Positions 25,081 to 49,679 of a DNA stretch of 64,000 bases are shown in pieces. Position 1 is the first letter of the stretch. Each line of letters starts with the position of its first letter. Source of the DNA: Sandaracinaceae bacterium (GTDB taxonomy: Bacteria; Myxococcota_A; Polyangia; Polyangiales; Sandaracinaceae); contig JAVJQK010000105.1 of assembly GCA_040218145.1 (NCBI GenBank), positions 124,001 to 188,000 of the forward strand. The letters run 5' to 3'. Position numbers and translations under genes: made by a program. Below the pieces are notes generated by a model. The model was given only the letters and a program-made list of their open reading frames with translations, had not been told where the DNA came from and searched no databases.

Positions 25081-28000
25081 TCAGCCCTCCCCCGGCACGA
25101 GGCGCTCGAGGAGTGGGATGGGTGGCGGCAGGCTGGGGGGATCGTCGGACTGCTCCATGTCGGGCGCGTCCGGCTCGGGGCCCTCGTCGGGCAGCTCCAC
25201 GGCGCGTGACGGGAGCACGCTGACCGGCAGGACCTCGGCCGTGTCGGGGCCGAGCGCGTCGTAGACCACGGCGCCGAGCCCGCGGAGGGTGCCGCCGACC
25301 GACCAGCGCACGGGCAGCGGCAGGCGCACCCACGCGGCGGGCGCGAGGGGGCGGAGCGGCAGGATGAGGGTGCGGCCCTCCTGATGCGCCTGACCCGCGA
25401 GGTAGCCGGCGAGGGCCTCGCGGGTCGGCTCGTCGAGCTCCGCGCCGGCGGGCAGCTCGATCTCGACGATCGGCCGGGTGAGGATGCGCGGCCCACGGTT
25501 CTGCACGCGGAGCGCGACGCCGGAGCGGGTGTCGCGCGCGCCGAGCTCGCCTTCGATCTCGAGCGCGATCGGCGCGCGGCGACGCGGCGCGGCGTCCCAC
25601 GGCAGGCCGTAGCTCAGCGCGAGGTGCGCGAGCGCGACCGCGCCATCGGGCAGGGTCACGGTGAGGGTGTGCGCGCCGGGCTCGCCGAGCCGCTCGAGCA
25701 CGGCGAGGGTGACCGCGCCCTCGCTCGTCGTCTCGACGGGGCGGCCGTCGAGCGCGATCTCGGCTTCGCTCACCCCGGGCGCGAGCCGGCCGGCCGCGGC
25801 GCTCGCGAGCGCCAGCTCCACGCCCTGGAACCAGGGAGGGGGGAGGATGTCGCCGCGCAGGTCGCCCCGGACGTCGATGGGCCGCGGCGCGGTGAGCTGC
25901 ATGTCCACGAGGCTGCGCACGAGCGCGAGGGCCTCGCCGCGTTGACCCAGCGCGAGGCGGGCCAGGGCGAGGAGCGCGGTCGGCTGGGCGCGCGGCTCGT
26001 GCCCGCGCTCGGCCTCGGGCTCCACCCACGCCATGTCGCCGACGCGGATCACGTGCCGCTCGGCGCGGCGCGCCATCTCCACCGCCCGGTCGCGGTCCTG
26101 GCCGTCGAGCGCGAGCGCGGCGGCGGCGCGGGCCCAGACGAGCGGGGCGTCGGTCGCGCTCGCGGCGTGGCCGGAGGCGATCTGGCGCAGGCGGCGCCGG
26201 GTGCGCGTGAGGTCCTCACGCAGGGCGGGCCGACGCGCCGCGTCGATGGGCGAGAGCGCGAGGAGCAACCAGGCGGGCTCGTCGCCGAACGCCTCGGGCT
26301 GCATGGTGCGCATCGCCTCTTCGGCCGGGAGCCGCTGGCTGACCGAGCGGAGCGCGCGCGCGGCGTCCTCGTCGTTCACCCGGTCGTCGCCCCAGAGCGC
26401 GGCCAGGGCCAGGGCGCTGCGGAGCGGGTCGCGCAGCCGCTCGCGCTCGTGATCTTCGTAGCTCACCCACTGGAGCGCGGTCTCCTCGACCGCCTCCGGC
26501 AGCCCCTGGCCGGCCATCGTGAACGCCCAGCCCGCCCAGAGCGGGTCGCCCGTGGTCGGGTCGCCGAAGAGGTGCGCGCCGACCGTGAGCCGGAGCTGCC
26601 CCGGGCCGCGCGCGCTCGCCTCGTCGGGCACCTCGATCTCGATCGTCTGCGCGCCCTCCATCAGGCGGGTCCGCCGGTCGCGGGCCGTGCGCGCGTCGGC
26701 GAGCACACGGATCGGGCGGCGGACCGCGTCGAGCGGCGCGCCCTCGTCGCGGGCCACGCTGACCACCAGCGCGCCCTCGCCTTCACCCGTGAAGCGGATC
26801 TGCGCGACCACCTCGCGCGCCTCGTTGGCGGGCAGCTCGGTCGGCTGTGGCTCCGGGGTGGGGAACTGCAAGTCGCCTTCGGCCTCGATCAACAGGCGCA
26901 CCTGGATCGGCGCGTCGGTCCGGTTCTCGATGCGGATGGGGAGGCGCATCACGTCGCCCGCGGTGGCGGTCTCGGGGATCGGCGCGTCGATGAGCACCTC
27001 CTGGTCGACCGAGAGCCGCCCCATCGCGCTCGTGGTCCAGCCGGTCGCGGTCCAGGCGATGGCCTCGAGCCGGTAGGTGGTGAGCGCGTCGGCGAGGGGG
27101 ACCTCGACCGTGGCCGCGCCGCCCTCGAGCGGGACCTGACCGACGTAGAAGAGAGTCGCCGGGAAGTCCTCGCGGATCAGCGCGCCCATCGCCTGCGCGC
27201 GGGTGTCGGCCTCGTCGCCGTCCTCGTCGTCGCTCATCCGCGCGTCGAGCTCGAACGCCGCCTCCTCCTCGGGCATCGCCTCGTCCGCGGCCGGGCGGCG
27301 CCTCGCGCGGCTCGGCGCGGGCGCCGCCGCCTGCAGACCGCCGAAGCTCCCGGCGCTGCCGCCGCCGCCCTCGGCCGTGGCATCGAAGGCAGCCCGGACT
27401 TGGATGTTCTGCGCGACCATGTCGTCCGAGAGCTCGCTCCCCGAGGACGACACCGGACCCTGCTGCTGCTCCTCGTAGGCCGCGAGCGAGAGCCGGTCGT
27501 AGGCCTGCGACATGCGCGTGAGCACGTGGGACGCGGGGGCCAGCGCGGCGAAGCGACGCATGAGCTGCTCCTCGCCGCTCGAGACCGCGTAGGGCGTGCC
27601 TTCGGGCACCGCGCGCGCGAAGGGATCCTTCACGTCGTCTGCGCTGCCGAGCCGGCCGTCGGCGCCGGGCGAGGCGAGCTCCCAGTCGAGGGCTCGCTCG
27701 CTGAGCGCGATCGCCGGCCGCCCGCTGACGCGGCGGAAGACGTAGGCGTTGCCCCAGGGGTCGACGAGATCGCTCGGGGGCACCATGCCGAGCTGCACCA
27801 GGGTGCCGAGCCAGCGCTCGGGCGGGAGGTTCGCGCTCGCCCGCTGCGCGTCGCGGTTGTCGGGATCGGTCAGCCGGAGCAGCGCGAGCAAGAGCCGCGA
27901 CAGCCGCTCGCGGGCCACGCGCCGCGCCACCGTCTCGAAGGAGAAGCCCGGGTCGGCCCGCTCGATCATCGCCACCGTGATCGGCTCGCCCCCGAGGGTG

Positions 28001-38548: not shown

Positions 38549-38622
38549 GCCGATGTAGCTCAGGTGGCTAGAGCGGGCGTTTCATACGCGCTAGGTCAGT
38601 GGTTCGACTCCACTCATCGGCA
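38549..38622 (+). tRNA. tRNA-Met (anticodon CAU)
   Basis: 74 nt fold into a cloverleaf: acceptor GCCGATG/CATCGGC, D stem GCTC/GAGC, anticodon stem GGCGT/GCGCT with loop TTCATAC (CAT at 38583-38585), T stem AGTGG/CCACT with TTCGACT loop, discriminator A. The acceptor pairs G1-C72, so it is not the formyl-initiator type with a 1-72 mismatch. The CAU anticodon could also be modified to read Ile AUA; elongator Met is more likely. The 3' CCA is not encoded. Confidence 0.93.
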
Positions 38623-40153: not shown

Positions 40154-41101
40154 CTACGGGATCGTCGGGAACGAGGGCGGCGGGGCCTCGGCCGCCCGCT
40201 CCAGGAGCGCGAGCAGGCCGGCGGCGAAGGCCTGCAGGACCTCGAGCGCGAGGTCGGGGTGATCTTCCCAGACGTCCACCGTCAGATCGCGCCCCATCGA
40301 GAGCGCCACGAGCCCCTCGCCCACCTCGGCCGAGTACCAGCGCGGGACCTGCCCCAGCGCGTCGAGGCCGCCCGCGAGATCTCCCGCGCCCAGCTCGAAC
40401 GCGAGGCCGTCCTCGGTGCGACAGCGCAGCGTGCCGCAGACGATGGCGAGGGCGTCGTCGGCGCGGTCGCCGACCTTCCACACCACGCGGCCGGGCTCGG
40501 CGCGGATCTCCTCGGCCCCCTTGGCCAGCTCCGCGAGGCTGTCGATGCGGCCGGCGCCGAAGGCGAGGGTCCGGCGGAGGAAGAAGATGCGCTCCACCAG
40601 ATCGAGGGCCTGGGCCGGGCACTGATCCCCCGCGCTGCTGCGGGTGGGGAAGCCCGCGCTCGGCGGGAGGCGGCGCCGGAGCTCGACGTTCTCGCGCGCG
40701 AGCTCGCGGATGACGGCGAGCAGGATCGGGAAGCGATCCTCGAACAGCTCCTCCAGATCCTCGGCGTGCAGCTCGAGCACGACGGAGTCCCGGGTGGCGA
40801 GGCAGTCGTAGCCGCGCGGATCGCGCGCGAACGCCGCGAGGCCGCCGACGCCCGAGCTCTCGCGATAGAGGCCCAGGCGCTTGCCGCCGCGGCTCAGCGC
40901 GAGCTCGCCTTCGAGCACGAGCAGCACCGTCTGGATGGGCTGGCCCTCCGTGAACACCTGCTCGCCCACGCCGATGCGGCGGGGCCGGGCGATGGCGGCC
41001 AGGGTCACGAGATCGCGCGTCGGCAGCTCGCTCCAGCCCGGGAAGCTGCGCATCGCGACGAGCCGCTCCACGCGACCGACGAGGGGCTCAGGCGAGGACA
41101 C
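40154..41101 (-). CDS. Protein with two cyclic-nucleotide-binding-like domains
   Basis: 315 aa from GTG 41101. The first cNMP-like beta-roll covers about residues 15-130 (GEQVFTEGQPIQTVLLVLEGELAL, then GVGGLAAFARDPRGYDCLATRDSVVLEL). A degenerate second roll covers about 185-300 (GRVVWKVGDRADDALAIVCGTLRC). The consensus phosphate-binding GE-x-x-A-R is not intact in either, so ligand binding is doubtful. No DNA-binding domain. It overlaps the transporter-HEAT gene by 14 bp; in related bacterial NTT-like proteins HEAT and cNMP domains are fused on one chain, so this is probably its cytoplasmic regulatory subunit. Confidence 0.78.
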   Translation of the reverse strand: MSSPEPLVGRVERLVAMRSFPGWSELPTRDLVTLAAIARPRRIGVGEQVFTEGQPIQTVLLVLEGELALSRGGKRLGLYRESSGVGGLAAFARDPRGYDCLATRDSVVLELHAEDLEELFEDRFPILLAVIRELARENVELRRRLPPSAGFPTRSSAGDQCPAQALDLVERIFFLRRTLAFGAGRIDSLAELAKGAEEIRAEPGRVVWKVGDRADDALAIVCGTLRCRTEDGLAFELGAGDLAGGLDALGQVPRWYSAEVGEGLVALSMGRDLTVDVWEDHPDLALEVLQAFAAGLLALLERAAEAPPPSFPTIP

Positions 41102-43844
41102 CGCGCATCCCTCTCGGCGCGAGCAGCTCGAGCGCGCGCGCGACGACCTCGCGCGCGAGCCCGGTGGCGCCCTCGTTGGCGTCGCGCAGCGGCTCGGCGA
41201 GCTCCGTCAGGCCCAGCTCGCCCACGTGATGGGCGACGATCGACCGCACCGCCTGGCTCTGATCGTCGAGCATCTCGCGCAGCAGCGCCTGGTAGCCGTC
41301 CGGCAGCGGTCCCAGGCTCGTCGTCTCGCGCACCCGGCGGAGTCTGTCCTCGTCCGGCGCGTCGTCGAGCAGCGCGTCGAGGGTGGGTGAGAGGCTCAGC
41401 CAGGTCAGCGCCCCGAGTAGCTCGCGGCTCTCCGCGCGCAGCCGCCGCGAGCCGTGGCGCAGCGCGTGGGTGATCCGCCGCAGGTCCTCTCGAGGGTGTG
41501 CGAGCGCGATGAGCCGCACCGCCCGATCCAGCGCCTGCTCCTCCTTCTCGCGCAGGGCCGAGGCGAGCAGCTCGCCGCCGCGGGTCCGGAGCGACTCGTC
41601 TTCGGCGTGCGCGCGCGCGACCATCACGCGCCGGGCGAGCATCTCCGCCGCGCGCTCCAGGTTCTTGCGGACGCTCGCCTCGAGCCGCCCCTCGTCGAGC
41701 CTCAGGCTGGGGAGCTTCTCGCGCAGGGACAGCAGCCCGCGGAGGATCTTGTACCGGACCCAGCCGTCGGGCTCGTGGTCGAGCCGCTCGAACAAGATCT
41801 CCGCCGCGCGCGGGGTCCCGAAGCGAGAGATGCTCCGCGGGAGGTGGCCGCGGACCTGCCGCGGGAGCGACCGATCGTCGAACGCGCGATCGAGCGCCTC
41901 GAGGGCGTCCTGCCCCAGCGCCATCAGGGCGTCCCGGCTCTCGTGGCGGGCGCCGCGCGGGCCGAGCCAGCCGATCAGGATGGGGAGCGCGTCGGGATCA
42001 CGGATGCCCGCGAAGCCGCGCGCCAGCTCCCGACGCAGCTCCGGCGTCGCGCCCCGCGTGAGCTCGTGGAGCACCGGCGCGAGGCTCCGGTCCCCCTGCA
42101 GCCGGATCGCGCGGGCGAGCGCGACCTGCACCTCAGGCTCGTGGCTCTCCACGCACTCGTCGATCTCCGCCCGCGCTTCACCGTCCGCGTCGAGGCCGCG
42201 CGCGACCAGCGCCGCGAGCACCGACGCCCGGACCGCGGGGGGGTGGCCGCCCTGCAGCTCGCGGTGCAGCTCGTCCTCGCTCATCACGCCGCTGAGCGCG
42301 CGCATGGCCGCGGCGCGGATCTCGTCGTCCTCGCGTTCGAGGAGACGACGCGCCACCGACATGAAGTCCGTGCGCTCGCCGTCGCCGAAGAGCTCGAGCG
42401 CGCGCAGGACCACCGCGCGCGAGGGGTGATAGAGGAGGAGCGCCGGGATGAGGCGGGTCCGCCCGTAGTCGGCGAGCACGTCGAGCGTGGCCAGCACCTC
42501 CTCGTCGCGCTCGCTGTTCAGCGACTGCATCAGCGACTCGAGCGAGCCGAGGTCCAGCTGGGGCACCTCGGCCCGCGTCTCCACCGTGCCCGCGCGGAGG
42601 TTCGCGCGGAACAGGTCCAGGTAGGAGCGGCGCAGCGTGAGGGCGAGCACCACCCAGCCGACCGCGAGCGCGCCGACCGCGATGGCCAGCTGCTCGCTCT
42701 GGAGCCCGACGAACCCGGCGCCGAGGATGGCCAGCGAGCCGAGCGCCTGCCCACCTCGCTGCCCGAGCGAGTCGATCACGGTCTTGTAGCGGTCCCGGAT
42801 CTCTCGGCTGAGCGGGAGGTACAGGAGCTCGAACGCGGAGCGATGCAGGGAGTGGCGGAGCGCCCCATCCGCGCCGCGGAGCGCCATGGCGGGGTAGAGC
42901 ATCGCGCCGGCCGCCCCCGCGATGAGGGCGCCGACCGCGCCCATCGCGAGCAGCGCCGGCAGCACGACGAGGGCGCGTGTGGCGCCGAGGGCGCTGAGGA
43001 GGCGCGGCGCGATCGCCAGCTGCACCACCAGCGAGACCACGTTGAGCACGAGGTAGAACTGGCTGAAGAACGGTCCGAGCTCGGCCGTGCTCAGCTCGCG
43101 GTCGATCGTCGCCTTGAAGACGTAGTCGACCATGATCGCCGTGATGGACGTCAGGGCGACGAGGAGCAGCAGCCGGCCGACGTAACCGCGGCGCCCGCGC
43201 ACGGACTGCTCGTCCGGCTCGCTGCGCGTGGGCTCGGCCGCCACGGGCTCGGGGCTCGGGACGCAGAGCCCGGGGATGGCCGCGGTGATCGCGAGCAGGC
43301 CCGCGCCGACGAGCACCAGGCCACGCGGAGGCAGCCAGCCCTGCGCCACGCTGGCGATGGACGCGCCGGCCACCGCGCCGAGCGAGCCGCCGGCCGCGAT
43401 GCGCGCGTACAGCTGCCTCGCCTCCGCGACGGTGAAGAGGTCGGCCAGCAGCCGCCAGAACTGGGCCACCGCGAACGTCGCGACCAGCCCCGTCCAGATG
43501 TAGAAGGCGTGGGCGATGAGGAACGTGTCCTCGTCGAAGCCCACCCAGAAGCAGACCGTGCCCCCGGAGGCGAAGAGCAGGGTGAAGACCGAGATGCGGC
43601 GCTTGTCGAACCGCTCGATCAGGAAGCGGTCGATCTGCGCGGCCACCCAGGCGGCGGCGGCGATGCCCAGATACGTGAAGGGCAGCTGCTCGGCGGGGAG
43701 GTGGGTGAGGAAGAGCGCGTCGCGCGCGACCTCGAGGACCGTGTGCCCCGCCAGGAGCGTGAAGAGAGTCGCCGCGGCCGCCAGCGCGTGGCGGCCGTTC
43801 TCGATGCCGTGGCCCGGCGAGAGCCTCTCCAGAAAACGGCGCAT
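41088..43844 (-). CDS. NTT/MFS-like transporter fused to HEAT repeats
   Basis: 918 aa. Residues 1-420 have about 11-12 hydrophobic helices in the pattern of ATP:ADP antiporter-like (NTT, MFS superfamily) proteins (GHTVLEVARDALFLTHLPAEQLPFTYLGIA, VAQFWRLLADLFTVAEARQLYARIAAGGSLGAVAG). Residues about 430-918 are helical HEAT-type repeats (VLRALELFGDGERTDFMSVARRLLEREDDEIRAAAMRALSG and similar). The substrate may be a nucleotide, but specificity cannot be read. It overlaps the cNMP-binding gene, forming a two-gene unit. An unusual inverted-repeat structure lies upstream (43937-44035). Confidence 0.82.
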   Translation of the reverse strand: MRRFLERLSPGHGIENGRHALAAAATLFTLLAGHTVLEVARDALFLTHLPAEQLPFTYLGIAAAAWVAAQIDRFLIERFDKRRISVFTLLFASGGTVCFWVGFDEDTFLIAHAFYIWTGLVATFAVAQFWRLLADLFTVAEARQLYARIAAGGSLGAVAGASIASVAQGWLPPRGLVLVGAGLLAITAAIPGLCVPSPEPVAAEPTRSEPDEQSVRGRRGYVGRLLLLVALTSITAIMVDYVFKATIDRELSTAELGPFFSQFYLVLNVVSLVVQLAIAPRLLSALGATRALVVLPALLAMGAVGALIAGAAGAMLYPAMALRGADGALRHSLHRSAFELLYLPLSREIRDRYKTVIDSLGQRGGQALGSLAILGAGFVGLQSEQLAIAVGALAVGWVVLALTLRRSYLDLFRANLRAGTVETRAEVPQLDLGSLESLMQSLNSERDEEVLATLDVLADYGRTRLIPALLLYHPSRAVVLRALELFGDGERTDFMSVARRLLEREDDEIRAAAMRALSGVMSEDELHRELQGGHPPAVRASVLAALVARGLDADGEARAEIDECVESHEPEVQVALARAIRLQGDRSLAPVLHELTRGATPELRRELARGFAGIRDPDALPILIGWLGPRGARHESRDALMALGQDALEALDRAFDDRSLPRQVRGHLPRSISRFGTPRAAEILFERLDHEPDGWVRYKILRGLLSLREKLPSLRLDEGRLEASVRKNLERAAEMLARRVMVARAHAEDESLRTRGGELLASALREKEEQALDRAVRLIALAHPREDLRRITHALRHGSRRLRAESRELLGALTWLSLSPTLDALLDDAPDEDRLRRVRETTSLGPLPDGYQALLREMLDDQSQAVRSIVAHHVGELGLTELAEPLRDANEGATGLAREVVARALELLAPRGMRGVLA

Positions 43845-43936
43845 GGTCCCGCCCGGAGTATGGACCGTGATGGTCCATCGCGTCGCTTCTGCGTCAGCGC
43901 CGCTCTAGAGAGGCGCTCCGCCTACCTCCCGTCGCC

Positions 43937-44035
43937 TGCCGTTTCCTGCGATTCCTGGACCGCGTTGCTTCCTCGGTCACGTGCTGAGAGCACGCTCCCT
44001 CGTCGCGCCTTGCCCAGAAACCGCAGGAAACGGCA
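43937..44035 (-). ncRNA. Structured intergenic element (candidate leader RNA or operator)
   Basis: Two perfectly complementary 14-bp arms (TGCCGTTTCCTGCG at 43937-43950 and CGCAGGAAACGGCA at 44022-44035) enclose 71 nt. Inside are two more hairpins: GACCG/CGGTC (43958-43978) and CGTGCT-gag-AGCACG (43980-43994). The result is a closed multibranch fold, 93 nt upstream of the transporter gene and 78 nt after the sigma-factor stop. No known RNA family is recognised. It could equally be a DNA site or a terminator-like element. Confidence 0.5.
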
Positions 44036-44113
44036 TGCTCGGTCCGGCAAGCGGTTCGACTCTCTGGCACCCCGTCGCGTTCTTCGGCGGCGGGGCGGAG
44101 AGTCAGCGCGGGA

Positions 44114-44935
44114 TCAGGCGGCCAGGGCGTCGCGCGCGCAGGCCCGCGCCATCGGCGCGGCCTTGGCCTTCTCGAGGGCCTTGCGCATCTTCAGCAGCGC
44201 CTTGGCCTCGATCTGCCGGACCCGCTCGCCGCTGACCGAGAGGGCCTCGCCGATCTCGCGGAGGCTGCGACGCTCGTCGCTGAGCACGCGCTCCTTGACG
44301 ATGCGGCGCTCGCGCGCGTCGAGCACCGAGAGGGCGTGCTCGGCCAGCTCCATCGCGACGCGACGGCGCTCCTCCTGGGCCGCGGCCTCCTCGGGCGTGG
44401 CGTGGTCGGCCGGATCGTGGCCCGCGCGCGGGTCGTCGACCGCGATCGGCACGTCCGGGTAGCTCAGCTCGTGCTGCACCGCGAGGACCTCCTCGACGCT
44501 CACCTCGAGCACCTCGGCGAGCTCCTCGGCGGTCACGTGGTCGCCCTTCTTCTGCTCCATCTGGCGCGCCGTCTTGCGGAGCCGCTGGCGCAGCTTGCGC
44601 ATGTTGCGGGTCTTGCTCGGCGTCACCATGCGGCGGTTCGCGCGGACGTAGCGCTGCATGTAGTAGCGCACCCACCAGCGCGCGTAGGTCGAGAATCGCG
44701 TGCCGCGCTCCGGATCGAACCGGCCGGCCGCGTCGAGGAGACCCACGAAGCCTTCGTGGATCAGGTCCTCGCGCGGGGCGCCGGGGCGTCCGTAGCGCTT
44801 CGCCATCGCCGCGACGAGCGGGCGGTGGCGCACGACGAGCTCGTGCAGCGCCCTCGGGCAGCCGTTGCGCAGCCGCTCCGTCAGCGCTTGTTCTTCTTCA
44901 CGGGTCAAGGCATCTCGGCGTTCGGTCATCGTCAT
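44114..44935 (-). CDS. RpoH-type (sigma32-like) alternative sigma factor
   Basis: 273 aa from the ATG at 44935 (GGAGG about 10 nt upstream). Region 2 is clear: EDLIHEGFVGLLDAAGRFDPERGTRFSTYARWWVRYYMQRYVRANRRMV. Region 4 HTH is SLREIGEALSVSGERVRQIEAKALLKMRKAL. Region 1.1 is absent, as in RpoH/SigB-C-D-E of myxobacteria. The RpoH-box position holds a Lys/Arg-rich RNMRKLRQRLRKTARQ instead of the enterobacterial sequence. It directs stress- or development-specific transcription. Divergent from the fusion enzyme across 160 bp containing a short palindrome. Confidence 0.9.
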   Translation of the reverse strand: MTMTERRDALTREEEQALTERLRNGCPRALHELVVRHRPLVAAMAKRYGRPGAPREDLIHEGFVGLLDAAGRFDPERGTRFSTYARWWVRYYMQRYVRANRRMVTPSKTRNMRKLRQRLRKTARQMEQKKGDHVTAEELAEVLEVSVEEVLAVQHELSYPDVPIAVDDPRAGHDPADHATPEEAAAQEERRRVAMELAEHALSVLDARERRIVKERVLSDERRSLREIGEALSVSGERVRQIEAKALLKMRKALEKAKAAPMARACARDALAA

Positions 44936-45026
44936 GGGTCCCCCCCTCCGCAACCGCGATGCCAGCCGGATCGAGTGGGCGAGGCGCCCAAACGCGGCCG
45001 GATGTGCGATGGCGTTTTCCCCCGCC

Positions 45027-45095: not shown

Positions 45096-48000
45096 ATGCA
45101 AGCGCGCGGCGACTTCATCGACGGGAGCTTCCACGCTCCCACCGGAGACACTTTCACGAGCCACGACCCCGCCCGAGGCGGTCAGGTCGTGCTGGAGACG
45201 GCGGGCTCGCCCGAGCGCGTGGGCCAGGCCTGCGAGGCCGCGGCCGCCGCCCAGCCCGCGTGGGCCGGCCTCGACTTCGACGCCCGGCTCGCGGCGCTGA
45301 TGCGCTTTCGCGCCGCCCTCGCCGAACGCGAGGATGGGCTGAGCGAGGCGATCAGCCGCGAGATGGGCAAGATCCGGAGCGAGGCCCGGACGGAGATCAA
45401 GGCGCTCGTGGGGCGCTTCGCCCTGGTCGAAGGCCAGGTCCGCGCGGAGCTGAGCGGCGGCGCCATCCCGGGCTTCCCGGCCGAGGTCATCCGCTACCGA
45501 CCCCACGGCGTGGTCGGCGTGCTCGGCCCGTTCAACTTCCCCCTGCACCTCTGCCACGCGCACGTCGTGCCGGCGCTCCTCCTGGGCAACACGGTCGTGA
45601 TCAAGCCGAGCGAGATCACGCCCCTGTCCGGGGAGCGCTACGCGGAGGCGGCCCAGGCGGCCGGGCTGCCGCAGGGCGTCTTGAACGTGGTGCAGGGCGG
45701 CGGCGCGGTCGGCGCGGCCATCGTCGCGAACCCGCACGTGCGCGGCCTCGCCTTCACCGGCTCCTGGGGCACCGGGCGGCGCATCTCCGAGGCGGCGCTC
45801 GACCGGCCCGACATGCTGCTCGCGCTCGAGATGGGCGGCAAGAACATGTGCGTCGTCCGCGAGGACGCCGACCTCCGGCAGGCCATCCACGAGGTGATCA
45901 CGAGCGGCTACCTGACCACCGGCCAGCGCTGCACCTGCTCCGACCGCGTGCTCGTGCACCGCAGCCTCGCCGGGCGGCTCGTCGACGGCCTGCGCGCGGT
46001 GCTGGCGGAGCTGTCCTTCGGAGACCCCGAGGACCCGGCCTCGTTCGCCGGCCCGCTCGCCACGATCGCGGCGCGGGATCGCTTCGTGAAGACCCTCGAG
46101 CAGGCCCGCGCGAAGGGCGCCGAGCCGATCGTCCCCGGCGGCGCACGTGAGGGCGGGGCGTTCGTCGCGCCCTCGCTCCACCGCCTGGCCGACGGAGTGC
46201 ACGAGCTGGCCGGATACACCGACGAGGAGCTCTTCGGCCCCGATCTCTGCGTCGAGACCTTCGATGACGACGACGAAGCGATAGCGGCGCTCAACGCGTC
46301 GCCCTACGGCTTCGCATACAGCATCTTCACCCAGGACCTGGAGCGCTTCGGCCACTACGAGCGGCAGGTGCGCACCGGGATCCTCAACCGCAACCGGAGC
46401 ACCAACAAGGCCAGCCCGCGCCTGCCCTTCGGCGGGGTGAAGAAGAGCGGCAACTTCCGTCCCGCGGGCGCCTGGGCCGGGCGCAATCTCGCCTATCCCA
46501 TGGCGGAGATCCACAACGGCGCCGGGGTCTACGACCGCCACGCGCACATCGAGCCGCTCCTGCCGGCGAGCGACCTGGACCAGCTCGAGGCGCAGCACGC
46601 GGGCGAGGAGGAGGCGGAGCTCCGTCGCACGCTCTTCGACACGCCGCGTCCCTTGCAGGTGCTCCTCCCCGAGGGAGGGGAGCTGCCCGAGTCCGACGCG
46701 CTGCACGAGCGCTTCTACGCCGGCGACCGCTACGTCAGGGGCGAGAAGAAGCCGCCGGTCTTCGACCACCTCCGCTCGAAGGGCCCGTGGATGGTCTCCA
46801 TCGACGAGGCGCCGATGAGCGTGATCGACGGGATGAGCCAGACGGCGACCATCCCGGCCGGCTTTGGCGCCGACGCCATCGTGCGCGCCTACGTGGAGGG
46901 CGACTTCGGCGACGCGCCGCTGAGCAGCGGGGACACTACGCTCGGCGACGACCCCCACGCGCTCGCGTTCGCCGAGACCCTGCGCGGGCTCGCCCCGGGG
47001 CTGCCCACGGTGAGCTTCGTCAACAGCGGCGCGGAGGCGAACGAGAAGGCTTACGCGCTCTGCCGGCTACAGAAGCCGGAGCGCACCAAGCTGCTCGCGT
47101 TCGAGGGCAGCTTCCACGGCCGCACGATGCTCGCGCTCTACGCGAGCTGGAATCCGTCCAAGCGCGTGCCCTTCCAGATCGCCGGCTACGAGGTCGACTT
47201 CGCGAAGGCCCCTTCGCGGGAGGTCTTCGAGGACGGCGAGCCCATCGAGCCCGAGGGCTGGACGGAGGTCTGGGGCGGCGGCGACGTCGAGGCGGCCAAA
47301 GCCCGCTGGGGCAGCTCCCCCGACCCGCTCCTCGCGGCCGAGGTCGCCGCGCTCGCCGACGTGGACGAGCGCCTGGCCACCGAGACGCACTTCGCGGTCG
47401 TGATCGAGCCCATGCAGAGCGAGGGCGGCGATCGATACGTCAGCGCGCGCTACCAACGCGCGCTCCGGCTGCTGACGCGCGCCCGCGACGTGCCGCTCGT
47501 CGTCGACGAGGTGCAGTGCGGCTTCGGCCTCGGGGGACCGTTCCTCTGGCACCAGCGCTTCGGCTACGTCGACCGCGACGGTCAGCCCGACACGCCGGAC
47601 TGCGTCTGCTTCGCGAAGCGCGCGCAGGTCGGCGTGTGCATGAGCGTCTTCGAGGACCCCGAGCCGACGAGCGCCTTCCCCGCCTCGCTCGCGCGCGGCC
47701 GGTTGCACGCCGAGAGCGTCGGCGACGGCAGCGACGCCGCGCGCATCGAGGCCCTCGTGCGGCCGCGGCTCGAGGCGCTGCATCGGCGCTGGAGCCACCG
47801 CATCGAGAACCCGCGGAGCGAGGGCTTCGCGCTCGCCTTCGACGTGGCCGACTCGGACACCCTGATGGCCTACCTCGGCCAGCGCTTCTGGCGCGGCGTG
47901 GTCGTCTTCGGCGCGGGCTCGCGCACGGTGCGTTACCGGCTGAACAGCAGCTTCGACGCGCGCACGCTCGACACCCTCTTCGAGTCCATGCAGCGCTCGC

Positions 48001-49679
48001 TCGCGTGGATCGAGGCGCACCCGGGTAAGAAGCCGCCGGCGTGGGAGGACTTCGCGTCCGGCCGGACGGACGACGTCGCCGCGCCGCCGGTCACCGTGCG
48101 GGTGGCGGACCCGGCGGAGCGCGAGGCGCTGATGGAGGCCATCGTCGCGCTCGAGGCCGAGGTCTACGAGCCGGCGCGGCGGGACAGCCCGGAGCGCCTC
48201 GGGCTCGCCTTCGCCGAGGGCGGCGTGGCGGTGATCGCGGAGACCGAGGAGAGCGGCGACAAGCGGGTGATCGGCACCGCGCTCGCCGCCCCGCTCGAGG
48301 CGGTCGAGGGCGTCGACGGGGCGGACCGCGACCCGATGCGCGGCCGGCACAACACGCTCTACTCCCTCGCCGTGACCGTGCACCCGGACTACCAGGGGCA
48401 CGGGATCGGGCGACGGCTGAAGCTGGCGCAGCTCACGCAGGCCCGCGCGATGAAGAAGGACGGCGCCGGTCGCTACCGCCACGTCACCGCGCGCAACCGC
48501 TTGCCCGACGCGAGCTCCATGGCGCGGCTGAACGACTCGCTCGGCGCCTACACGGTGTTCCTGCTCGAGGGTCAGTACGAGGGCGACGGGGTGGCGCGCT
48601 ACTACCGCCAGCCGCTCGGCCGCTTCGAGCCGGATCCCGTGCGCGTCGTCGAGCGGAGCGCGCCCACGCACGACCTCGCGGCGGGCATCGCCAGGCCCTT
48701 CGCCGCTCCGCCGGCGTCGCTGGTGAAGCTCCACGAAGCGGGCGCGCTCTACGGCCCGACCGTCAACAAGGTGACCGTGCTCAACTACCTCACGCCCGCG
48801 GTGGTCCGCGCGACGGAGTGGGTGGGCGCGCTGACGCCCAGCTTGCCGCACGCGTATCTCTGCTCGAGCCGGGACGAGACCGTCGACAAGTCGGTCCGCG
48901 TGCTGCGGTGGCACCGCCCGCACGCCCAGAAGGTGATCTCCTTCGAGGGCACCTACGTCGGCCACACCGCGTCGGGCGCCCGCTCGATCAGCGATCCGGC
49001 GACCCACGCGCAGGGCGCGCCCTACTTCGACTGGCCTCGCGTGCCGCACCCGGCTGACGGGCTCGACGAGAGCCTGTCCGCGCTCCGGAGCGAGATCGAG
49101 CGCGCCGGCGGCGGTGATCAGGTGTTCGGGCTCTACCTCGAGGTGGTGCAGGAGCGAACCGGCCGCGTCGTGCCCGACGCGTTCTGGCCCGCGCTCGCGG
49201 AGCTGCGCGCGGAGACCGGCGTGCCGGTGGTCGTCGTCGAGACGGCGAGCGCGTACTACCGCTCGGGCCGAGGCGCGTTCGCCCTGGACGGGATCGACTT
49301 CCAGCCGGACCTGATGATCTGGTGGACCGGCGGGCAGCTCGGCTTCGTGCACGTCACCACGCCCTACCTCGTGAACAAGCCGCTCACGCTCGTCAGCACC
49401 TGGGACGGCGACGAGCTGAGCCTCGTCCAGGCTCACCACCAGCTGCGCGCGGCGCGCGGGCTGGATCTGCAGCCGGCGATCGCGGCGCTCGACGAGGCGC
49501 TCGCCGGGGTTCGGAGCCGTGGCCTGGGCCTGCACCGCGTGCTCGAGGGCGTCGACGCGACGCGTCTCGAGGCGGCCGGGATCCGCGGGCGGCGCCTGCC
49601 GGGAGATCGCCTGGCGGTCACGCTCCAGCTGGACGCCGCCGCCGCGCAGGCACAGGCCCTGCGCGACGCGTTGGGTTGA
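45096..49679 (+). CDS. Four-domain fusion: ALDH, class III aminotransferase, GNAT, second aminotransferase-like domain
   Basis: 1527 aa in one uninterrupted frame. Domain 1 (about 1-490) is an aldehyde dehydrogenase closest in motifs to succinylglutamate-semialdehyde dehydrogenases, with Glu245 (LEMGGKN) and Cys279 (GQRCTC). Domain 2 (about 540-985) is a class III aminotransferase with [25 protein letters not shown] and PLP Lys841 (CFAKRAQVG). Domain 3 (about 1005-1190) is a GNAT with [21 protein letters not shown]. Domain 4 (about 1210-1527) repeats the aminotransferase layout ([12 protein letters not shown]), but the lysine position reads WWTGGQLG, so it is probably a structural or regulatory pseudo-domain. 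A channelled route for diamine, ornithine or lysine breakdown (transaminate, then oxidise, with N-acylation) is inferred. Confidence 0.85.

Follow-up and report, generated by a model that had tools for sequence, protein, structure and literature searches.

The window, the whole 64,000-nucleotide stretch of Sandaracinaceae DNA analysed here, contains a palindromic element in a 269-bp intergenic region (43845-44113) between a sigma-factor gene and a transporter gene. The two genes are co-oriented on the minus strand, and the element lies in sense with both. Farther along, positions 45096-49679 form one open frame of 1527 aa, which by eye starts like an aldehyde dehydrogenase and goes on into an apparently aminotransferase-like region. 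The features of the locus are as follows.

44114..44953, minus strand: upstream gene, a sigma-70 family sigma factor (Pfam Sigma70_r2/r3/r4)
41088..43844, minus strand: downstream gene, a transporter with HEAT repeats, of the MFS / TLC ATP-ADP type (Pfam HEAT_2, MFS_1, TLC)
43908..44064, minus strand: whole ERIC-like mobile element, 157 bp, GAGAG...CTCTC (ends common to copies; empty and filled sites within the species; end-to-end fold)
44044..44064, minus strand: first terminal inverted repeat, GAGAGTCGAACCGCTTGCCGG (end conserved in copies)
43908..43928, minus strand: second terminal inverted repeat, pairing with the first (end conserved in copies; pairing in the fold)
43937..44035, minus strand: inner palindrome, the repeat first noticed here, with a 14-bp perfect outer stem (folding, stem check)
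43972..44002, minus strand: core hairpin CGAGGGAGCGTGC-TCTCA-GCACGTGACCGAG, common to several phyla and, with changes, to ERIC (exact pattern match at G000:C105:167972-168002; alignment, covariation)
44065..44066, minus strand: flanking dinucleotide CA, candidate target duplication, unlike the other side (read from the sequence)
43906..43907, minus strand: flanking dinucleotide TA, candidate target duplication (read from the sequence)

A first-pass annotation had described an inverted-repeat element at 43937-44035. Its perfect 14-bp outer stem is present (43937-43950 pairs with 44022-44035), and both the size it gave for the intergenic region and the 93 nt between the repeat and the transporter start (43844) are correct. 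Its boundaries were too narrow, however, since the 99 bp sit within the 157-bp element, and its three-way-like fold is replaced by one continuous ladder hairpin that runs end to end on the minus strand. This strand of the whole element folds at -100.8 kcal/mol, with the first base paired with the last and short internal loops at intervals. For 43937-44035 the minus strand reaches -64.5 kcal/mol (z -8.2) and the plus strand -46.3 kcal/mol (z -4.4), and none of 200 shuffles folded equally well on either strand. In a GC-rich stretch such as this one, the energy by itself is not exceptional, as 2 of 799 segments of 99 nt reach -64.5 kcal/mol; the most stable of the sampled 99-nt stretches, 27281-27379, folds at -70.9 kcal/mol. 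A three-way-junction RNA on the plus strand was rejected, since the minus strand folds far better. Rfam gave no family above the gathering threshold at 43850-44120, nor at the core in 18 other loci. The sole Rfam match above the gathering score in the window is a tRNA gene at 38549-38622 on the plus strand.

The element is repeated in its own genome. A 111-bp query matched 19 places in assembly G000, 15 of them near-complete and 4 partial; this is a lower bound, with 40 of 53 candidates scored, and several of the copies are at contig ends, where some may be collapsed. Both ends are common to the copies, and similarity stops beyond them. A second genome of the same species, G102, has 13 matches, and the nine longer ones (L283-L291) were compared with G000. 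Three (L283, L285, L291) correspond to filled G000 sites. The two sides of L289 match two different G000 copies, and this locus is probably an assembly chimera; L290 lies at a contig end. The remaining four (L284, L286, L287, L288) matched none of the compared G000 loci. When their joined flanks were searched in G000, an element-free site was present in all four cases. Two of the junctions are clean: the empty site GGGCAGGTG corresponds to GGGCA-[element]-CAGGTG in G102, a 2-bp duplication of CA, and the empty site GCGCTACTCTG to GCGCTA-[element]-TACTCTG, a 2-bp duplication of TA. The third empty site has TC in G000 where the G102 flanks have CA, and the fourth is diverged. Because the copies found only in G102 have empty counterparts in G000, two of them with clean duplications, the insertion polymorphism between these conspecific genomes establishes that the element is mobile. 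As to direction, we infer that G102 gained the copies and not that G000 lost them precisely. The dinucleotides that flank the window copy itself differ from one another. Like MITEs in general, the element has terminal inverted repeats and a target-site duplication and is without a transposase gene. The polymorphic insertions make mobility testable in this species.

Other repeats lie close to some of these copies. Another family (CCGAAATGCTTCAGCATTTCGTCGTCGG...) is found repeatedly just upstream of the element, in the left flanks on contigs C91, C143, C37 and C120 of G000, which suggests nested or composite repeats. A second miniature element, with ends GACTACTTGGTCACAT..., occupies L023 1530-1684 (G000:C128); the corresponding site in G102 (L292) is empty, and the duplication is CTAG. 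Ends of the GACTACTTGGTCACAT family also abut copies of the ERIC-like element on C6 and lie near a copy on C90.

These observations bear on the original suspicion that the locus encodes a regulatory RNA. The part of that suspicion which stands is that of a conserved, structured element, with covariation in its core and arms that pair in cis. If the transporter gene had a cis-regulatory or small RNA of its own here, this would account for the strong structure, for its place 93 nt ahead of the start codon and for its sense orientation relative to both neighbours. However, what lies there is a mobile repeat with copies dispersed at unrelated sites, and when the family was searched with the transporter as a guide, the DNA of the element proved not to be conserved at the orthologous position beyond this species. 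We therefore consider an RNA belonging to the transporter gene very improbable.

How far does the element extend beyond this species? With a 160-bp query, 6 of 96 genomes matched, the source genome included. G042 (in 8 listed places), G081, G003 and G033 matched over the centre only, and the match in G051 looks spurious by eye. When 84,980 species genomes were scanned for exact matches to the core pattern, the central ~30 nt, CGAGGGAGCGnnC-loop-GnnCGTGACnGAG, appeared in at least 120 genome stretches. Among the matches listed, core-bearing records carry labels that we take to represent at least seven phyla. The labels of 80 of these stretches were considered, and the records used later include ones labelled Bacteroidales, Clostridia, Chloroflexi, Myxococcales/Sandaracinaceae, Lysobacterales, Acidobacteria and Dormiibacterota; most of the hosts are metagenome-assembled genomes, and single taxon labels may be wrong. 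Folding of every sixth core copy with enough flank placed the cores in longer imperfect palindromes, the arms of which differ yet pair in cis. A covariance model of 65 copies matched 18 of 187 Myxococcota genomes (E<=0.001) and 9 of 198 genomes from the phylum of G101 (E<=1e-4), with 19 copies in G101 itself. The same kind of count gave 46 copies in G033, 28 in G042, 14 in G000, one each in G081 and G006, and none in G003 or G001. The distribution is thus uneven, and some hosts carry many copies.

Target duplications are not of one length. The flanks in G042 show a 5-bp CTNAG duplication rather than one of 2 bp; among the 25 of 34 copies that could be parsed, 18 have identical flanks, against a permutation mean of 9.3 (0 of 20,000 permutations were as high). 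Core-less MITEs with the G042 arms were sought and rejected: the paired arms are ~108 bp apart with the core between them, and the clearest shorter pair (C235) also bears the core. An autonomous relative in cis was likewise rejected: across 120 loci, the surroundings of the core show no recurrent ORF family, and the largest cluster comprises 5 loci at distances of 1.5 to 5.6 kb.

Conservation of the structure was assessed in an alignment of 65 copies. Near-duplicate removal reduced 117 copies with enough flank to 76, of which 11 that appeared less palindromic or odd were dropped by eye (L048, L062, L067, L077, L092, L108, L119, L121, L127, L134, L158). The core pairs in 98.2% of cells, a figure to which the search pattern contributes by fixing most core letters, so that only the N positions and the flanks are informative. 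Double changes occur in 37 cells, compared with 8.5 in shuffles, and the covariation score is 0.207, compared with 0.069 (0 of 500 shuffles). Pairing in the core is kept through compensatory changes across phyla. Two apical pairs that are free of the search pattern show two-sided changes, in 12 and 10 sequences, respectively, and were never broken. The arms pair as well. At 22-45 nt outside the core, the best partner of a left arm is the right arm of the same copy in 45 of 76 cases, and this own pair ranks in the top 5% in 60 of 76, where ~1 and 4 are expected, with a mean pairing energy of -24.2 kcal/mol for own pairs vs -10.8 kcal/mol. By 45-75 nt this signal is nearly lost (own pair best in 4 of 76).

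All 65 copies have a G.T pair at the base of the apical stem, letters that the search pattern fixes, with GA facing GA alongside. Enterobacterial copies, which were found without the core pattern, also have the G.T base and the GA/GA. On the GA-rich strand only, G.T is a standard wobble; hence, selection may act on that strand in its single-stranded form, as RNA or DNA. The outer arms in G033 and in G096/G097/G101 are often specific to the copy within one genome, still pair, and by eye are often terminator-like. Such arms would be compatible with insertion into a hairpin that was already there and equally with inverted copying of the flank. By eye, the outer arms of G033 copies L197-L202 and of the G097 copy L184 vary between copies yet pair, and the right arm alone is often a small terminator-like hairpin.

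First described in 1991, ERIC underlies a typing PCR in wide use. We know of no mobilising enzyme identified for it. In the available portion of a 2024 review (PMC10969869), ERIC is placed only in Enterobacteriaceae and Vibrionaceae, and the table of PMC2229807 gives it 5'-TA-3' termini along with a target-site duplication. With a copy from G096 as the query, BLAST returned weak matches in the gutM-srlR intergenic region of Salmonella and, among 5,426 E. coli genomes, nothing at E<=1; since E. coli is not reached by BLAST, the link to ERIC rests on the core plus structure. The Salmonella sequence itself has relatives in 5,376 of the 5,426 E. coli genomes, at a median of 11 places, and agrees with the ERIC2 and ERIC1 primers at 19/22 and 15/22 positions, respectively (primers as given in the accessible part of PMC10573385). 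Judged by this match to published primers, the gutM-srlR repeat is an ERIC.

Model R1, a covariance model built from 65 non-enterobacterial copies without any enterobacterial sequence, matched the gutM-srlR repeat with E 9.1e-5 and gave three matches at E<=0.01 on a 728-kb Salmonella record, the best at 4.5e-7. On 200 kb of E. coli K-12, its best match and the only one below 0.01 was in metR-metE (E 0.0064, modest taken alone), which is also the sole BLAST match to ERIC in those 200 kb. The next K-12 matches (E 0.08 and 3.6), to a short hairpin, are probably noise. The metR-metE ERIC has the same ladder fold, with GGGAGCTTAC-TGAA-GTAAGTGACC.

Together, these comparisons lead us to read the window copy as a copy of a non-autonomous, ERIC-type miniature mobile element, with a probability of roughly 0.77. 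Like ERIC (IRU, RU-1), the element is intergenic, dispersed and non-autonomous and forms a closed imperfect hairpin in the range of ~127-157 bp; at 157 bp in a single closed hairpin, the window element is 30 bp above 127. Both have the apical motif GGAGCkTAC..GTAmGTGAC with its closing G.T and tandem GA loops, and both have flanking AAGGCG / AACGCAGC motifs in one order. The 2-bp duplications found here at two of the four empty sites, one TA and one CA, may correspond to the TA termini and duplication tabulated for ERIC in PMC2229807. Unlike ERIC, the element has a host outside Enterobacteriaceae and Vibrionaceae, its core in the window copy reads GAGGGAGCGTGC where ERIC has CCAGGAGCTTAC, and its terminal arms (GAGAGTCGAACCGCTTGCC... 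in the window copy) are entirely different from the enterobacterial ATACCCTAAATAATTCGAGTTGCAGG... ends. Agreement of the window copy with the ERIC primers is limited to 11/22 and 13/22 positions. We do not call the element ERIC outright because of the unrelated terminal arms, the poor primer matches and the variable duplication length. A literature search for ERIC-like elements in other phyla found none by title or abstract start, in a collection that largely leaves out subscription papers, and a search with the core string returned unrelated papers only.

The differences just listed would also suit a MITE that is specific to this lineage and belongs to an ordinary IS family, its core having come to resemble that of ERIC because stable GA-flanked hairpins arise by convergence. 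Such an origin agrees with the contrast to ERIC in arms, hosts and duplication length, and with the failure of BLAST with a related copy to reach E. coli. Convergence of this kind would nonetheless have to produce the same apical motif, including the closing G.T and GA/GA loops, between the same flanking motifs in one order, as well as the significant cross-matches of R1 to Salmonella, and we regard it as unlikely.

REP and REPIN elements, which are associated with RAYT, also have a GA-flanked intergenic stem-loop, and the apex of the element may resemble the REP hairpins of Pseudomonas. Such a resemblance and two Y1_Tnp matches in G000 would be in keeping with an element of the REP type that depends on a RAYT (Y1) transposase for its movement. 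However, the REP unit is much shorter than the element, and target duplications, here of 2 bp and in G042 of 5 bp, are not expected of the Y1 family. Moreover, Y1_Tnp (PF01797) is present in only 3 of 11 genomes searched, whereas the exact core is present in 9 of the same 11. Movement by RAYT is thus hardly credible. YPAL/RU-2 of Yersinia resembles the element in being palindromic and mobile and in having targets near dyad symmetry, as far as the consulted part of PMC2229807 describes it, but differs in having 3-26 bp duplications and internal inverted repeats; the YPAL sequence printed in Table 1b of PMC2759123 is by eye without the core, and YPAL was rejected. The Correia/NEMIS, RUP and CIR MITEs in the table of PMC2229807 are also small intergenic repeats, many with inverted-repeat ends and TA termini; they are tabulated there from other genera.

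For an ERIC-type element, we propose that an enzyme supplied in trans would move the element by way of its terminal inverted repeats, its core hairpin, or both, and that the core hairpin would be read in single-stranded form, as DNA or RNA. At the window locus, the hairpin would form part of any transcript that reads from the sigma-factor gene into the transporter gene, and there it could alter mRNA stability. The nearest precedent comes from Yersinia, where ERIC is reported to affect mRNA decay through an RNase E site, in the portion of PMC10969869 that was available. The orientation of other copies bears on RNA function more generally. In low-GC relatives, where the element lies past the 3ʹ end of a gene, the well-folding strand is antisense to that neighbour in 12 cases vs 1 (p 0.003), so read-in transcripts would carry the poorly folding strand; this argues against an RNA function in 3ʹ UTRs there. 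High-GC genomes have the same antisense orientation in 8 cases vs 4, which is not significant, and a cruder ORF call over all 76 copies gave 21 vs 4. The window copy is oriented oppositely, such that a transcript from the sigma-factor gene would carry the well-folding strand.

More speculatively, mobile palindromes of a single class could extend over many bacterial phyla, with ERIC as their enterobacterial branch. Such a class would share a conserved, strand-specific, tandem-GA core that widespread machinery reads in single-stranded form, with arms, target duplication and probably transposase exchanged between lineages; in some genomes, the arms would be copy-specific and built from a flanking terminator hairpin. 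We put this forward tentatively and consider it somewhat doubtful as a whole. If the ERIC core is present across phyla, the distribution of the core offers a direct route to the enzyme that moves ERIC, and ERIC-PCR bands from distant bacteria may need to be re-read.

Copies also occur in tandem. One array, at L070 3073-3488 on a record labelled Chloroflexi, has four copies at 128-bp spacing; another, at L187 in G101, has three copies spaced at 135 bp. In E. coli K-12, between cysP and ucpA (L271 43706-43726), an isolated GAGCGTAC-ACATA-GTACGTGA hairpin equals the apex of the element, without a surrounding BLAST match to ERIC.
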